Assembly (NCBI RefSeq): GCF_000427965.1
Contig: NZ_ATZA01000002.1
Span: 124,001 to 188,000 of the forward strand
Source of the DNA: Olivibacter sitiensis DSM 17696
GTDB taxonomy: Bacteria > Bacteroidota > Bacteroidia > Sphingobacteriales > Sphingobacteriaceae
Reading direction: 5' to 3'
DNA length: 64,000 bases
This document shows, piece after piece, positions 54,984 to 60,963 of this stretch; within the stretch, counting starts at the first letter, position 1; every line of letters begins with the position of its first letter. Position numbers and translations under genes: made by a program. The notes beneath the pieces are model-generated. The model searched no databases and was not told the DNA's origin. It saw nothing but the letters and a program-made list of their open reading frames with translations.

Positions 54984-56603
54984 CTAGTCGACACCCCCCT
55001 TACGGGTTGGTGAGCGTTGCTCTGGCCAAGCCATCGGTTCGCCCGTCCTTGGGTTAATCGGTAATTTGATCCTTTCAGTAGAAGTCTTTTCGGGATCTTC
55101 GCTAGCATAATAGGCCAGGATAGCAGTAAGGATGGCATTATTGCGCACATCATCAAACACGATCTTATCATACGTATCCCTATTGGTGTGCCAGGTATAG
55201 GTGCCGTATGACCAGTTGAGCGAACTCAAAGAGAAAGCGGGTGCTCCTGCGGCCACAAATGAAGCATAGTCGGAACCTCCCCCGCCTGGTGCTCCGGGAA
55301 AGCTGGTTTCTATGTGCTGGCGTATGTTGCGTGGCACCTTGGAAAGCCAACGGCCCAAGTAATCATAAGCATGCAAGAACCCTTGTCCACTGATATTCAC
55401 TACTCTTCCTGTTCCATTGTCTTGATTGAACAGCGCCTGCAAGTTCTTGACGACCTCCGGATGGTCTTCCACAAAGGCGCGAGAACCATTCAGTCCTTGC
55501 TCTTCACTTCCCCAATGGCCCACGATGATCGTCCGCTTAGGGTTTGGATATAATTTCTTGAGTATCCGCATAGCTTCCATCATAACCAACGTGCCCGTAC
55601 CGTTGTCGGTAGCACCAGTCCCCCCATCCCATGAATCAAAATGCGCGGACAGGAATACATATTCATTCGGCTTTTCAGTACCCCTAATTTCAGCAATAGT
55701 ATTAAAAGTGGGCACCATTCCATTCTCCTTTGAGTCTGCTTTAAGGCTGATAGTGGGGGCATTGCCAGACTCGGCCAGGCGATAAAGCAAACCATAGTCT
55801 TCCAGCGCCACGTCTACAGTAGGCACTTTCAACGTGTTGGCCCCAAAAATTTTGTCCACTCCAAAACCATTGGACCAGTTGGAGCTAATAATACCCAATG
55901 CGCCTGCATTTTCCAGCGCCCTGTGTAGGTCCTTCGTGCTATATCCAGTTTTACTCAGGCGTTCTGCCCAGGCACGCTGCTGAGCAGCTCTCGAATCTTT
56001 CATTTTTTCGAACGATTCCTTTGTCGCAAACTCTTCCCAATTGTAGTCGGGCCTACCCGTTGGCTGCGAGAAAGAGACCAATACAAATTTCCCCTTCACC
56101 GATGGCAGCCATTTCTGAAAAGCGATGGAGTCGGCAACATCGGCCAATATTATCACTTCTCCTGTTACTGTCTTGCCTTTCGTGCTAGGGCTCCAGGCCA
56201 ACTGCATACCTTCCAATGACTTTACTCGTGGGCTTAATAAGTCGATATGGGTTATCCCTCTCTCCCATCCGCGCCATTCGCCCCACTTCTCATTCTTGGC
56301 ATCTATGCCCCAAGTAGCGTATTTGGACACAGCCCAGTCGTGCGCTTTTTGCATCTGCGGACTACCTACCAGACGAGGCCCTATTCCATCCATTAATTCA
56401 CGTCCCAATAGCTCTAGTTGTGAGTTCTCAGTTCCTTCTTTCACTATCGACTCAACAATAGGATCCAATTTCTCGGGCATATCGCCCATCATGCCACGTC
56501 TCTGGGCATAGCTATTTCCGCCAAGCAAGATGACCGAAAACAGCATGCTACAGGTTGCCTTCTTCCAAAAAGAAGAACTAATTCTAGTAGATAAAGTATT
56601 CAT
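54984..56603 (-). CDS. M28-family zinc metallopeptidase, secreted
   Basis: A 539-residue aminopeptidase-like enzyme with a signal peptide (WKKATCSMLFSVILLGGNSY followed by AQ). A PA-like insert (GEVIILADVADSIAFQKW to GIISSNW) precedes the catalytic domain. Zinc ligands are seen as His and Asp of SAHFDSWDGGTGATDNGTG, the Glu pair of GSEEQGLNGSRAF, Asp of GGGGSDYASF region and His of YTWHTNRDTYDKI. Expected location is periplasm or outside. Peptide nutrition or protein turnover is likely; specificity is not visible. It is divergent from the arginine deiminase gene, with the 11-bp repeat array lying in the shared upstream region. Confidence 0.9.
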   Translation of the reverse strand: MNTLSTRISSSFWKKATCSMLFSVILLGGNSYAQRRGMMGDMPEKLDPIVESIVKEGTENSQLELLGRELMDGIGPRLVGSPQMQKAHDWAVSKYATWGIDAKNEKWGEWRGWERGITHIDLLSPRVKSLEGMQLAWSPSTKGKTVTGEVIILADVADSIAFQKWLPSVKGKFVLVSFSQPTGRPDYNWEEFATKESFEKMKDSRAAQQRAWAERLSKTGYSTKDLHRALENAGALGIISSNWSNGFGVDKIFGANTLKVPTVDVALEDYGLLYRLAESGNAPTISLKADSKENGMVPTFNTIAEIRGTEKPNEYVFLSAHFDSWDGGTGATDNGTGTLVMMEAMRILKKLYPNPKRTIIVGHWGSEEQGLNGSRAFVEDHPEVVKNLQALFNQDNGTGRVVNISGQGFLHAYDYLGRWLSKVPRNIRQHIETSFPGAPGGGGSDYASFVAAGAPAFSLSSLNWSYGTYTWHTNRDTYDKIVFDDVRNNAILTAILAYYASEDPEKTSTERIKLPINPRTGEPMAWPEQRSPTRKGGVD

Positions 56604-56754
56604 GTTTGTATTGATTTGTTTTTTGACGACACTAAGATAAAGATTACAACGACACCAAAGGGCTTTTTATAGCTTTTTGTTACATTAGACAACCCACTTT
56701 TTTTTTTCATCTGTCCTTCCGCTTTAATAGGTACCAACTTAATACCATGTATTC

Positions 56755-56871
56755 AGTTAACTGAGAGTATACAGAGTATTTATATAGTTTTGACAGAGGG
56801 TTAACATAGATTATACCTATGTTAACCCTCTGTTAACCCACTGTTAATACTTTGTTTAAGCTCTGTTAATA
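56755..56871. repeat. Dyad array of ten 11-bp units around a 7-bp centre
   Basis: Right half, direct units: CTATGTTAACC, CTCTGTTAACC, CACTGTTAATA, CTTTGTTTAAG, CTCTGTTAATA (56817-56871). Left half, the same unit inverted, in order outward: GGTTAACATAG, TTTTGACAGAG, TATTTATATAG, AGTATACAGAG, AGTTAACTGAG (56809 back to 56755). All are exactly 11 bp apart. The centre is ATTATAC (56810-56816). The 17 bp on either side of the centre are perfect inverted repeats (56793-56809 and 56817-56833). Consensus CTCTGTTAAYA. The left units 2-4 match less well (8-9 of 11). The period is close to one helical turn, so all units could face one protein surface. Function unknown. Confidence 0.75.
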
Positions 56872-57062
56872 GCTAATTTGATATAACTTAGGTATCTGTT
56901 TGTCCAAGAGATGGCTCGAGCTATTAGAAGACCTACCTTCCATAGTCCAATTACCCTGTAACCCGACATCCATCTATCCTGACATCCACTCGTTTTTTAC
57001 CAAATGCTATTCCATATGAATCCGACCGACAACACAAGACTATAATTCAGCGTAATTTTCCC

Positions 57063-57070
57063 TAAGTTTG
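57063..57070 (+). promoter_or_regulatory. -7 element of the arginine deiminase operon
   Basis: TAAGTTTG matches TAnnTTTG exactly, 62 bp before the ATG and about 190 bp downstream of the repeat array. No -33 TTTG was found at the normal distance. Confidence 0.4.
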
Positions 57071-57132
57071 CAAGGCATGCACGACAAGAAGAGCATTTGC
57101 AGTAAGGTAATAAACATGTAGTTTTATTTTTT

Positions 57133-58554
57133 ATGATTCAGGTAAGTTCGGAAATAGGCACGCTCAAAAAAATCATCGTACATAGCCCAGACAGTGGCCT
57201 AGGCAAAGTCGTACCTTCCAAGGCCCAGGATTGGTTATTTGAAGATATCGTACACCTTAAGACCGTAAGAATGGAGTACGACTATTACCTCAAGCTCTTA
57301 CTCTATTTTCTAGACCCTACCGTCATCAAGGGAAAGCTGGGTACCCTAGAAGATACGACACATGGACGAGCCTTTTTCAAGCCAGACAGTGCAGGTTTCT
57401 ACCGTTCCGATAAAGTCATCGAGGTGCAACGCCTGCTGGCCGATATATTGGAAAACGAAAGTATCCGCAAAAAATTGGTGGCTTCGGTCTGTGCTATCGA
57501 AGGCTGCACCTACCAACTGCAGTTGGCATTGATAGACACTGCACCCAAGAAGTTGGCCAAGATCATCCTATCGGGAGCATTGGACGATGAACACATGATC
57601 TTTGCTCCCATACCCAACCTCATCTTCACGAGGGACCTGGCCGTAGTAATAAACGACCATATTTTGCTAAACAAGCCAGCCAAGAAGGCGCGCAGCCGAG
57701 AGAACCTCATCATGCGGTACGTGCTGTTCAACCATCCTTTCTTTGCAAGCTATGCGGGAAAAATACTGGAAATACCCGATTCCGTGCAGTATTTCCTGCG
57801 CCCCGAGGAAGACTACGACAACAGGGCCACACTGGAAGGGGGCGACGTGATGACCATCAGTCCCAGTCATGTGCTGATAGGTTGCAGCGAGCGTACGTCG
57901 GCCCAGGGCGCCAATGAGGCCATCAAGCTGCTCTTCCAACATGGAGTAGTAGAAAAGGTCACGCTGGTGAAAATACCCAATAAACGGGATTTCATGCACA
58001 TAGATACCCTCTTCACCCAAGTTAAGAAAAACGTATGGGCATTACTGGCCTCCGTTTCCAAAAAGGCCGAGCCGAACGGGAAGGAGCCTATCCATCATTT
58101 CCATTTCATGGAGAAGACCGAGCCCGACACGGCCATCATCCAGTTTCGCCGTGACGCCGTGGAAAACCCAAGGACCTATGATTGCCTAGAAGACCTGTTG
58201 GACGAGATAAGCCAGCAAGAACTGCAAAGCAAGGAGCCTACCAAATTCATTTACAGTGGCAACAACATATTTCCCTATGATGCCCGTGAACAATGGACGG
58301 ACAGCTGCAACCTACTTGCTCTCAAGGAGGGTGTGGTACTGGGATATGACCGCAACGATAAGACCGTAAGCGCTTTCAAGCAGGCTGGATTTGACGTTAT
58401 CGGCGTGAAAGAACTCATCACTCAACTTGAAAACGGACAGAGAACGGCCCAAGATATAGAAAACACCCTCATCTTGATGCCCTCGGCCGAGCTTTCGCGT
58501 GCCCGCGGTGGTTTCCACTGCATGAGCCTGCCCATATTACGTGAACACCTATAA
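57133..58554 (+). CDS. Arginine deiminase family protein
   Basis: A 473-residue guanidino-group-modifying enzyme expected to hydrolyse arginine to citrulline and ammonia. Visible active-site motifs are IFTRDLAVVI, LEGGDVM, GCSERTSAQGANEA, the His of FMHIDTLFT and the nucleophile Cys463 in RGGFHCMS. It is longer than typical bacterial ArcA (about 410) because of extra segments around KKAEPNGKEPIHHFHFM. Citrulline would be passed to the product of the next gene, 12 bp downstream. An agmatine-deiminase activity is unlikely because the motif set is ArcA-like, but substrate should be treated as unproven. Confidence 0.85.
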   Translation: MIQVSSEIGTLKKIIVHSPDSGLGKVVPSKAQDWLFEDIVHLKTVRMEYDYYLKLLLYFLDPTVIKGKLGTLEDTTHGRAFFKPDSAGFYRSDKVIEVQRLLADILENESIRKKLVASVCAIEGCTYQLQLALIDTAPKKLAKIILSGALDDEHMIFAPIPNLIFTRDLAVVINDHILLNKPAKKARSRENLIMRYVLFNHPFFASYAGKILEIPDSVQYFLRPEEDYDNRATLEGGDVMTISPSHVLIGCSERTSAQGANEAIKLLFQHGVVEKVTLVKIPNKRDFMHIDTLFTQVKKNVWALLASVSKKAEPNGKEPIHHFHFMEKTEPDTAIIQFRRDAVENPRTYDCLEDLLDEISQQELQSKEPTKFIYSGNNIFPYDAREQWTDSCNLLALKEGVVLGYDRNDKTVSAFKQAGFDVIGVKELITQLENGQRTAQDIENTLILMPSAELSRARGGFHCMSLPILREHL

Positions 58555-58566
58555 GCAAATCTATCC

Positions 58567-59481
58567 ATGCAAACGACCAACACGATACTGATGATAAGGC
58601 CAAAGGCTTTTAGGTACAATGAAGAAACGGCGGGCGACAACGCCTTTCAGCAATATAGCGATGAGCAAAACATACAGGACAAGGCCTTGGAAGAGTTTGA
58701 CAACTTGGTGGCACTGTTGAAGGAAGAAGGTGTAGAAGTACTCATCTTCGAAGACACACTGGATGAAGATACGCCGGATTCGCTCTTCCCGAACAATTGG
58801 CTGTCCTTTCACGAGGGGGGCGTAGCCGCACTATATCCCATGTACGCCCCCAACCGCAGGTTGGAAAGGAGAACGGATATCCTGGGCACGCTGCGTCATG
58901 ATTTCCAGCTGGAACAGGTATTCGATCTCAGCTACCTCGAAAGGGACGATATATTTCTGGAAGGCACGGGAAGCATGGTGCTGGACAGGGAAAACAAAAT
59001 AGCCTATGCCTGCCTCTCGGAACGCACCAACGAAGAGGCACTGAAACTGTTCTGCCAGCAGTTTGGCTACACGCCCATTACTTTTCATGCCTTTGACCGA
59101 GCTGGCAAGCCCATATACCACACCAATGTGATGATGAGCGTAGGTGAAGACCTTGCCTTCATTTGCATAGAGAGCATCACCGATGAGGAAGAGGAAGAAA
59201 GGGTGGTAGTATCGCTGCAAAAGACAGGAAAGAAAATCATTGCGCTCAGCTTTGAGCAGGTAAACCAATTTGCCGGTAATATGCTCAACGTGCACGACAA
59301 GAACGGCGAACAGCTGCTCGTCATGTCCGAGCAGGCTTACCTATCGCTCAACGACGGGCAGCTGCGCGCCATTAAGGGATTGGTCCATATCGTACAATCG
59401 CCTTTGTACACCATTGAAAAACATGGCGGAGGCAGCGCTCGATGTATGATGGCGGAGGTATTTCTGGATAAAAAGGCTTAA
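58567..59481 (+). CDS. ctlX: CtlX-like citrulline hydrolase (amidinotransferase fold)
   Basis: A 304-residue pentein-fold protein. Motifs LFPNNWLSFHEGG, LEGTGSMVLDR, YHTNVMMSVGED and the C-terminal GGSARCMMAEVF with the nucleophile Cys293 match the CtlX family (citrulline utilisation hydrolase, also annotated as amidinotransferase). Characterised relatives split citrulline to ornithine, CO2 and ammonia. It follows the arginine deiminase by 12 bp, so the pair could convert arginine to ornithine without carbamoyl phosphate. An inverted repeat TTAAGGCG/CGCCTTAA (59478-59485, 59502-59509) spans its stop. Confidence 0.85.
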   Translation: MQTTNTILMIRPKAFRYNEETAGDNAFQQYSDEQNIQDKALEEFDNLVALLKEEGVEVLIFEDTLDEDTPDSLFPNNWLSFHEGGVAALYPMYAPNRRLERRTDILGTLRHDFQLEQVFDLSYLERDDIFLEGTGSMVLDRENKIAYACLSERTNEEALKLFCQQFGYTPITFHAFDRAGKPIYHTNVMMSVGEDLAFICIESITDEEEEERVVVSLQKTGKKIIALSFEQVNQFAGNMLNVHDKNGEQLLVMSEQAYLSLNDGQLRAIKGLVHIVQSPLYTIEKHGGGSARCMMAEVFLDKKA

Positions 59482-59571
59482 GGCGAGAAGGTAGAAGGCT
59501 ACGCCTTAAAAGCTTATTGCTTATCATTAAATAAAATCACATTTTTGCACAAATTTTGTTATATATAGAAC

Positions 59572-60963
59572 ATGCAGAGCTACCAGGAATTTCTTGACCT
59601 CAGTGTAGGCTTCCCTCAGGACGGATTTGAAATCATTGACGATGAGCTATATTTCCACGACCTCAATCTAATGGAAATGATAGAGACGTATGGCACGCCC
59701 TTGCGTTTCACCTATTTGCCCCTTGTGAGCAAAAAGATACAGCAGGCAAAAATCCTTTTTCAAACGGCCATCCTGAAGAACAACTATCGGGGCACCTATA
59801 AGTATTGCTATTGTACCAAGAGCTCGCATTTTAAGCACATCGTAGAAGAGGCACTTAAAAACGACATTCACCTGGAAACTTCATCTGCCTTTGACATGCC
59901 CATGATCGACGCCCTGGAGAAAAAGGGTACCATCCGTAAGGACATCACGGTAATATGCAACGGTTTCAAGACCTTTCAGTACAAGCAGTACATCATAGAT
60001 ATGCTGCACGACGGCTTTCAAAATATCATACCCGTACTGGATAATAAGGAAGAGTTCAACCTATACGACGACGAGGTGGAACTGGATACGCCCTGCAATC
60101 TCGGCATACGCATAGCGGCAGAGGAACAGCCCGACTCGCAGTTCTATACTTCCAGGCTGGGCGTGCGCATGGAGGACATCATTGATTTTTACAACAACAA
60201 GATCGTTCCAAACCCCAATTTTAGGGTAAAATTATTGCACTTTTTCATCAATTCGGGCATATCGGATACGCCTTATTACTGGAACGAGCTGGAAAAGTAC
60301 GTGACGCTCTACTGCAAGTTCAAAAAGATAAACCCCGATCTGGACACCTTGGATATCGGTGGCGGTATGCCTTTCAAAGATTCCCTGGTACACGACTTCG
60401 ACTATGAGTACATGGTCAATGAGATCGTCAACCGCATTAAGCAGATCTGTGCCCAACACGATGTGATGGAACCCGATATCATCACCGAATTTGGCAAATA
60501 CACCGTAGCGGAAGCTTCTGGGATACTGTACAAGGTACTGGGCCGCAAGCAGCAGAACGATCGGGAGAAATGGCTCATGCTGGACGGTTCTTTTATTACC
60601 AATCTGCCCGATGTATGGGCGCTAAACCAAAAGTACATCCTGCTTCCCATCAACAACTGGGATTCGGAGTACGAACGCGTGAACCTTGGCGGCATCACCT
60701 GCGACGGACAGGACTATTACAACCAAGAGGCCCATATGAACAACGTGTTCATGCCCAAAACGCGAAAAGTACAGTACCTAGGATTTTTCCACACGGGAGC
60801 CTACCAAGAAGTGCTGAGCGGCTACGGCGGCATACACCACTGCCTGCTCCCCTCTCCCAAGCATGTCATCATCAGGAGAAATCGCGACGAGACATTCAAC
60901 TTCGAAGTGTTTGGCGAAGAGCAGAACAGCAAGCAGGTGCTGAAAATACTGGGTTATATCTAG
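59572..60963 (+). CDS. SpeA-like PLP decarboxylase, short form; substrate uncertain
   Basis: A 463-residue fold-type III PLP enzyme (alanine-racemase fold) usually labelled arginine decarboxylase. The PLP lysine is likely K83 in YCYCTKSSH, the phosphate loop is DIGGGMPF (from 261), and the SpeA-type segment FHTGAYQEVLSGYGG is conserved. It is much shorter than E. coli SpeA (658 residues). Since the two genes upstream would produce citrulline and ornithine, the substrate could be arginine, ornithine, citrulline or carboxyspermidine-like amino acids; the sequence does not settle it. The 90-bp gap before the ATG contains TTTTTG and TATATATAG but no exact promoter. It ends 15 bp from the convergent M61 gene. 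Confidence 0.8.
   Translation: MQSYQEFLDLSVGFPQDGFEIIDDELYFHDLNLMEMIETYGTPLRFTYLPLVSKKIQQAKILFQTAILKNNYRGTYKYCYCTKSSHFKHIVEEALKNDIHLETSSAFDMPMIDALEKKGTIRKDITVICNGFKTFQYKQYIIDMLHDGFQNIIPVLDNKEEFNLYDDEVELDTPCNLGIRIAAEEQPDSQFYTSRLGVRMEDIIDFYNNKIVPNPNFRVKLLHFFINSGISDTPYYWNELEKYVTLYCKFKKINPDLDTLDIGGGMPFKDSLVHDFDYEYMVNEIVNRIKQICAQHDVMEPDIITEFGKYTVAEASGILYKVLGRKQQNDREKWLMLDGSFITNLPDVWALNQKYILLPINNWDSEYERVNLGGITCDGQDYYNQEAHMNNVFMPKTRKVQYLGFFHTGAYQEVLSGYGGIHHCLLPSPKHVIIRRNRDETFNFEVFGEEQNSKQVLKILGYI

Follow-up and report, generated by a model that had tools for sequence, protein, structure and literature searches.

In the window, by which I mean the whole 64,000-nucleotide stretch of DNA analysed here, an M28 peptidase gene (PF04389; positions 54984 to 56603, minus strand) and a gene for an arginine deiminase-like protein (ADI; PF02274; 57133 to 58554, plus strand) flank a divergent intergenic region that holds a large repeat array. 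The ADI gene is the first of a three-gene run of arginine enzymes from 57133 to 60963, which encodes arginine deiminase-like, DDAH-like, and Orn/Arg decarboxylase-like proteins (PF02274, PF19420, and PF02784). The contig of 228 kb also carries mraZ and, judged by eye, other chromosomal cell-wall genes. As the original prediction had it, five direct and five inverted units of 11 bp are arranged around a centre of 7 bp. A perfect inverted repeat is formed by the innermost 17 bp of the two arms. The dyad centre (ATTATAC, 56810 to 56816) has no strand. The right arm (56817 to 56871, plus strand) is composed of the units CTATGTTAACC, CTCTGTTAACC, CACTGTTAATA, CTTTGTTTAAG, and CTCTGTTAATA, and the left arm (56755 to 56809, minus strand) reads outward as CTATGTTAACC, CTCTGTCAAAA, CTATATAAATA, CTCTGTATACT, and CTCAGTTAACT. 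It had been pointed out that some left units match the consensus CTCTGTTAAYA at just 8 or 9 of 11 positions. These counts hold (9, 9, 8, 8, and 9 outward from 56809), but the worst unit is a right one, at 56850, whose 7 matches fall below every left unit; the other right units have 9 (56817), 10 (56828), 10 (56839), and 11 matches (56861).

The extent first given to the array, 56755 to 56871, was too short, since outer modules reach about 56727 on the left and about 56899 on the right. The left outer module (56727 to 56751, minus strand) consists of TTGGTATTAA-type units in the same 11-bp register as the arms and has 17 of 25 matches to a module consensus learned from 115 arms; its null P lies between 0.008 (for 16 matches) and 0.0004 (for 18 matches). 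The right outer module ATTTGATATAACTTAGGTA (56875 to 56899, plus strand) has 15 of 25 matches and is weak when taken alone (null P 0.037). A leader resembling it follows the array before the DUF6266 genes of relatives, which are described below.

Could such an array arise by chance? The identity at period 11 is 0.70 in the right arm and 0.64 in the left arm, while the next best of the periods from 7 to 16 gives 0.40 and 0.46, so that the exact 11-bp period is the sole clear one in both arms, as had been proposed. A model-free score, which combines dyad symmetry over 55 bp with the 11-bp period and in whose making the window array took no part, is 100 for the window, in contrast to a maximum of 66 in 200 Markov-shuffled windows and of 70 in 50 AT-rich intergenic-like sequences of 64 kb. 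The array profile, which was built with the window array among its sequences, gives 100.7 bits in the window, whereas its maximum over 12.8 Mb of control sequence is 8.8 bits. The two checks suggested with the original prediction both came out in its favour: no comparable arrays arise in shuffled AT-rich DNA, and the 11-bp period is kept in relatives.

The window array belongs to a family of dyad arrays that occur dispersed in genomes, and the view that it is an operator private to the M28 peptidase and arginine deiminase genes is not supported. With a sequence-only model (R1) at E 0.01, three arrays and no more were found in the own genome, namely the window array (95 bits) and the copies on contigs C14 (98 bits) and C78 (91 bits). 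BLAST alignments with the window copy show 87% identity over 119 bp for C14 and 80% identity over 137 bp for C78. The same model at E 0.01 matches 138 of 399 genomes of the family, in 10 of 25 genera, although the weaker of these matches are unreliable; BLAST at E 0.01 matches 25 of 301 family genomes, several of them through short chance matches. The exact core pattern was found at five loci in GTDB contigs, all of them from Sphingobacterium. A class-wide sample of 395 genomes yielded matches at E 1e-4 in 6 of them. Two of the six belong to the same family, and the other four matches are weaker (E 4e-8 to 4e-5); among those four, the 11-bp period is clear in L320 and not in L318, L319, or L321. 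L320, from another family, and L317, from the same family, have dyads with a clear 11-bp period and different units, and the dyads of L318 and L321 are made of CTCTGTG and CTATGTG units that are spaced more loosely. Going by their sequences, the weaker dyads of L320, L317, L318, and L321 possibly represent a wider class.

For a census, 83 arrays of 13 genomes were collected, these being the stronger ones; the 211 two-strand matches in ten complete genomes correspond to about 105 arrays, and the census contains 74 of these. All 83 share the same dyad and 11-bp register, partly by construction because they were found with a profile. With the outer units included, an array is about 170 to 190 bp in length. 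The arm profile proceeds in steps of 11 bp from inner CCCCTGTTAAC-type units to weaker TTGGTATTAAC-type units in the same register. The information is highest near the centre and falls to background about 95 bp from it, and the outward fall is still gradual, with no sharp end, after 115 of 165 arms were re-anchored on the outer module.

Where do the arrays lie? Thirteen of the 83 are directly upstream of an ORF for a DUF6266 protein, with the gene reading away from the array. According to a simple ORF caller, the 70 arrays that are not beside DUF6266 lie between codirectional (30), divergent (17), or convergent genes (15) or are unassigned (8), and 4 of the 83 overlap a called ORF. Sixteen other arrays each lie 662 to 1092 bp upstream of a 16S gene identified with Rfam (4 in G223, 3 in G247, 5 in G202, and 4 in G265). 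These sixteen loci had been selected for flanks that either recurred within the genome or lacked ORFs, the Rfam test covered them and the three loci of the own genome, and the copies upstream of rRNA operons within one genome are not independent. In seven of the sixteen, the first TAnnTTTGC box was measured at 224 to 690 bp beyond the array. At the three array loci of the own genome, no rRNA was found with Rfam. By eye, glyA and the genes for threonyl- and lysyl-tRNA synthetases are also among the neighbours, as is a gene for a ribosomal L25-like protein together with ribose-phosphate pyrophosphokinase. The window's genus includes G002, where tRNA-Ile and tRNA-Ala genes occur at the same locus (L311) as an array, a hint of another rRNA operon.

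The array sites themselves are conserved among species. In six divergent pairs, the identity of the array is 0.61 to 0.76, while that of the right flank is 0.22 to 0.46 and that of the left flank is 0.25 to 0.33 (gaps counted as mismatches). In the three close species G223, G247, and G328, the fractions of loci not linked to rRNA operons that have an array-bearing counterpart are 10/12, 9/12, 10/10, 8/10, 9/9, and 8/9. In particular, all fetched loci of this kind in G247 (10/10) and G328 (9/9) have a counterpart with an array in G223, and the same is true (8/8 and 7/7) when the cluster holding DUF6266, which may match through the gene itself, is set aside. Non-orthologous copies in these species are as similar across genomes as within genomes (90.8 bits in both cases; n 287 and 145), in contrast to 192 bits for orthologous copies (n 31), and thus there is no sign of recent spread. 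Judging from these comparisons, the array sites in this group are old and stable and are lost now and then.

A convergent locus with mce-like and TolB-like genes (named by eye) was followed further; 93 genomes matched it and 30 of the loci were read. The array lies between two terminator-like hairpins in 13 of the 30, a decayed piece remains in L192, and the array is absent in 16. It is absent between alignable flanks in L193 and together with half of a terminator-like hairpin in L203 and L204, and these three states read as deletions. In the 13 other array-free loci, the gaps are just 39 to 120 bp and too short to judge. No clean insertion was seen at this locus, the one locus read for empty sites and target-site duplications, with the same 13 gaps too short to judge; an insertion could still have been the origin of the array there. 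Since the array is missing at 16 of the 30 loci and decayed at one, single copies are dispensable. The alignment of L205 and L206 has a gap of 11 columns, that is, of one unit. A tandem run of GGTAT that varies in length between species adjoins the array in the intergenic region of L201.

How close is the link to DUF6266? Three array-linked proteins were compared with PF19781, and two scored above the cut-off and one below. Sixteen of 63 distinct DUF6266 ORFs have an array 41 to 78 bp upstream and 47 do not, a count that is biased because most of the 16 entered through arrays. By eye, the 16 form one subfamily with the common motif G[AP][FV]Q[LM][AV]Q; L150, a further member of that subfamily, has just a weak array match. 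In an unbiased Pfam search of six genomes, whose listing lacks the array-linked genes G000 C78 and G001 C10, a comparison of coordinates showed that four of 28 DUF6266 matches adjoin an array and one adjoins a weak array. No DUF6266 neighbour was found at the three G259 arrays read or at the four census arrays of G157, and one is present at L106, a G157 array outside the census. At the genome level, strong arrays (E 1e-4) and DUF6266 occur together in 69 of 301 genomes (taken as part of the 399), strong arrays alone in none, DUF6266 alone in 65, and neither in 167 (Fisher 1e-30). Within genus g16, with arrays at E 1e-6, the corresponding numbers are 35, 0, 11, and 22 (p 5e-10); the statistics of both tables ignore shared ancestry. 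Matches weaker than E 1e-4 were counted as chance and dropped from the main table; with them included, the numbers become 80, 15, 54, and 152, the 15 being genomes with an array only. DUF6266 genes often form tandem pairs of diverged copies (L073, L074, L086, L135, L146, L148, L155, and L160).

The AlphaFold model of the C78 DUF6266 protein has a pLDDT of 94 (86 for the N-terminal part alone). Residues 114 to 211 form a fibronectin-type-III-like C-terminal domain (3r8q: Z 10.1, rmsd 2.3, 87 aligned), and on this ground the idea that DUF6266 is a transposase was dropped. Foldseek gave no match with E < 1 in PDB for the N-terminal part and none below 0.001 in PDB or BFVD for the whole model, results that leave room for distant relatives, and a profile search of PDB sequences returned nothing significant. 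Going by the model, DUF6266 is no evident DNA binder.

Since the family consists of short dyads dispersed between genes in many copies, about 190 bp each, it was considered whether the arrays are REP- or MITE-like mobile repeats, that is, selfish palindromic DNA spread from the DUF6266-linked copies or by a transposase, with the window copy an inert insertion. The 70 of 83 copies that are not beside DUF6266 and the 87% and 80% identity of the own-genome copies to the window copy would fit such a history. So would a result from genus g16: copies in the same genome, their flanks not being homologous, resemble each other more closely than copies from different genomes do (86.7 versus 63.8 bits; n 185 and 1383, p 2e-28), in a test from which rRNA-operon duplicates were excluded. 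However, the arrays have neither a sharp terminus nor a conserved terminal repeat and are best conserved near the centre, their loci are common to several species, the three close species show no sign of recent spread, and the three informative array-free states at the mce-like locus read as deletions. A plasmid or phage origin was rejected: the array has no DNA match in plasmids or phages, the array-linked DUF6266 protein has no relative in viral contigs, plasmids, or phages, and two array-linked DUF6266 proteins have no PHROG; the first two of these results also speak against a mobile repeat, as does the lack of hairpin covariation between the arms. I regard a mobile repeat as unlikely. A transcribed RNA hairpin or a DNA cruciform, acting as a terminator, attenuator, or processing signal, is very improbable. 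The window array does fold strongly (-54.4 kcal/mol, z -8.6), but such folding follows from the dyad, and a hairpin does not need a direct period of 11 bp. No Rfam family reaches the gathering score from 56500 to 57200, and no T-run terminator was found from 56500 to 57250. Moreover, the shift-optimised identity of the two arms is 0.654 within the same array and 0.674 between different arrays of the same genome (n 67 and 396, copies at rRNA operons left out). Because arms resemble each other no more within an array than between arrays, with no covariation within an array, the hairpin is not what is kept; the arms follow a shared unit consensus and not each other, as protein sites do. The unit consensus varies by genome, for example CCCCTGTTAACCCCCTG in G223 and CTATGTTAACCCTCTG in G000, as would be the case for sites that follow a trans-acting protein common to them; gene conversion could also be its source, given the greater likeness of same-genome copies across genus g16.

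The original prediction offered an operator controlling the M28 peptidase and arginine deiminase genes as one example of a role. The position of the window array in a divergent intergenic region suits this role, and the DUF6266 genes of relatives, which begin 41 to 78 bp from arrays, indicate that an array can be a promoter-proximal element. In addition, an orthologue of the decarboxylase gene (by eye) in G316 has another array about 175 bp from its 3' end (L253). However, the array was found in none of 18 full-length ADI orthologue loci of relatives, and for this reason an operator of the ADI operon was set aside. Altogether 20 ADI loci were read, including a profile scan (the own locus, the 18, two of which have less than 1500 bp of upstream sequence, and one short partial match), and only the own locus was positive. 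Between the array edges and the two genes there are 151 and 258 bp. A pattern scan found a promoter-like box, TAAGTTTG (57063 to 57070, plus strand), outside the array and before the arginine deiminase operon, and a second box at 56785 on the plus strand inside the left arm; both follow the pattern TAnnTTTG, the Bacteroidota-type promoter consensus. The former, the nearest box before the ADI gene, lies about 190 bp past the array. Two sigma-70-like matches also occur inside the window array, a number equal to that in shuffles. These promoter-like matches lend the operator some weight and leave some room for a promoter inside the array. Most sister arrays are not placed as promoters, and they occupy convergent and codirectional gaps as well. 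Thus, an operator of the flanking genes is quite improbable. Is the window array then the decaying remnant of the array of a deleted DUF6266 gene, with no role here? At 56911 to 56961 on the plus strand, 36 bp from the array edge, there is a possible relic of a DUF6266 start, ATG GCT CGA GCT (MARA), which runs for 16 codons to a stop. The DUF6266 protein of C78 starts with MARAKNG, 43 bp from its array, and the chance of a MARA start in 2 x 80 bp is 7e-5. In L102 and L124, which are alike and perhaps from one genome, an array with the DUF6266 leader and ribosome-binding site is followed by unrelated DNA from about the start codon on. The start codons at the expected distance and the two loci lacking DUF6266 from that point favour a remnant, and the window array may be the surviving part of an array-DUF6266 unit, which is suggestive only. 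In contrast, the putative relic matches a DUF6266 start in four codons only, and the window copy still scores between the other two own-genome copies. A functionless, decaying remnant is therefore somewhat unlikely.

The original prediction also suggested a multimeric DNA-binding protein that follows the helix, and this still appears to be the best reading. In my judgement it is quite probable that a protein reads the 11-bp units, and I lean towards the fuller explanation that the element is a site-specific platform for a putative DNA-binding protein that assembles into a multimer. The analysis shows the sequence architecture of the arrays, their dispersal and positional conservation, the absence of covariation between arms, and the link to DUF6266; the protein and its stoichiometry I infer as follows. 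Each unit would be read by one protomer or dimer, and with one subunit per 11-bp unit, neighbouring subunits would occupy almost the same side of the helix. From the dyad centre, two rows of about eight units each would run outward with opposite polarity and declining binding strength. A chromosome would hold several such platforms. In most genomes read, one or two of them would lie 41 to 78 bp upstream of a DUF6266 gene of the one subfamily and probably control it; promoter control fits the DUF6266-linked arrays. The others, upstream of rRNA operons and between convergent genes, would probably be architectural, as an anchor, insulator, or boundary, and probably not operators of the adjoining genes. 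An insulator or anchor fits the sites between terminator-like hairpins and those upstream of rRNA operons at varying distance, and I hold the architectural role as a tentative possibility. The window copy would be a solitary platform, possibly left after the loss of a DUF6266 gene. In seven complete genomes, the fetched arrays show no bias towards ori or ter (Rayleigh p 0.15 to 0.94), which counts against the platform, as a segregation site might show one. The dispensability of single copies at the mce-like locus, the TAnnTTTG box inside the window array, and a DUF6266 protein that is no evident DNA binder also count against it.

A bolder reading, which I put forward as speculative, joins the arrays and the array-linked DUF6266 protein into a single chromosomal system that is undescribed. 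In it, a protein would nucleate at the dyad and self-assemble one 11-bp step at a time, each chromosome having between one and about 18 fixed sites, several of them upstream of rRNA operons; the nucleoid would be organised or insulated, and DUF6266 would be the binder, a partner, or a feedback-controlled effector. If this is true, L320 and perhaps L318 and L321, related dyads from another family that are built of other units, would point to a wider class. Chromosome-organising sites are little known in Bacteroidota, and a large, regular, and positionally conserved non-coding element would be a concrete handle on chromosome organisation in this phylum. The strict co-occurrence with arrays would likewise be the first genomic clue to DUF6266. 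In the open-licence PMC literature (subscription journals being outside the scope), no paper was recognisable as describing the array element and none names DUF6266; the element is apparently undescribed.

How does the array compare with known systems? REP/BIME elements are dispersed intergenic palindromes with proposed roles in supercoiling and transcription (excerpts of PMC3733652). REPs are 20 to 40 bp in length and tagged with GTAG or CGTC, and the GTAG ones are linked to RAYT transposases. The arrays are likewise dispersed, palindromic, and located between genes, but they are about 190 bp in length and made of tandem 11-bp units, and GTAG does not occur in the window array. One known MITE has a length of about 190 bp (excerpt of PMC10969869). 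Like MITEs, the arrays are short, inverted, and multicopy. Unlike MITEs, they lack sharp terminal inverted repeats, their information fades outward from the centre, and their positions are common to several species. PhoB/OmpR-type boxes are 11-bp direct repeats with CTGT, arranged head to tail in two to a few units at the promoters of one regulon. The arrays share the 11-bp spacing and the head-to-tail CTGT-containing repeats; in contrast, they are mirror images, 15 of 83 lie between convergent genes, and 13 lie just before genes of a single family. In form, parC of plasmid R1, a type II partition centromere bound by ParR, comes closest to the arrays. It is this form that the centromere-like anchor of the original prediction would recall, but no partition gene adjoins the window array and the arrays are spread round the chromosome. 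The R1 parC repeats form two groups of five, and Dam and Gerdes reportedly described in 1994 ten direct repeats flanking a promoter. In R1 parC, the groups are direct with the par promoter between them, whereas the groups of the window array are inverted around 7 bp. R1 parC is plasmid-borne and lies beside parM and parR, whereas the arrays are many and dispersed on chromosomes and the neighbours of the window array are the M28 peptidase and ADI genes; no ParM or ParR was named among the Pfam-scanned neighbours of arrays, the other neighbours being read by eye. Nevertheless, the window array resembles R1 parC in that both consist of two groups of tandem units, each unit being about 11 bp in length. 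According to excerpts of PMC5016525 and PMC9426499, R1 ParR needs at least two 11-bp repeats, and in the ParR protein helix one repeat is bound per dimer.
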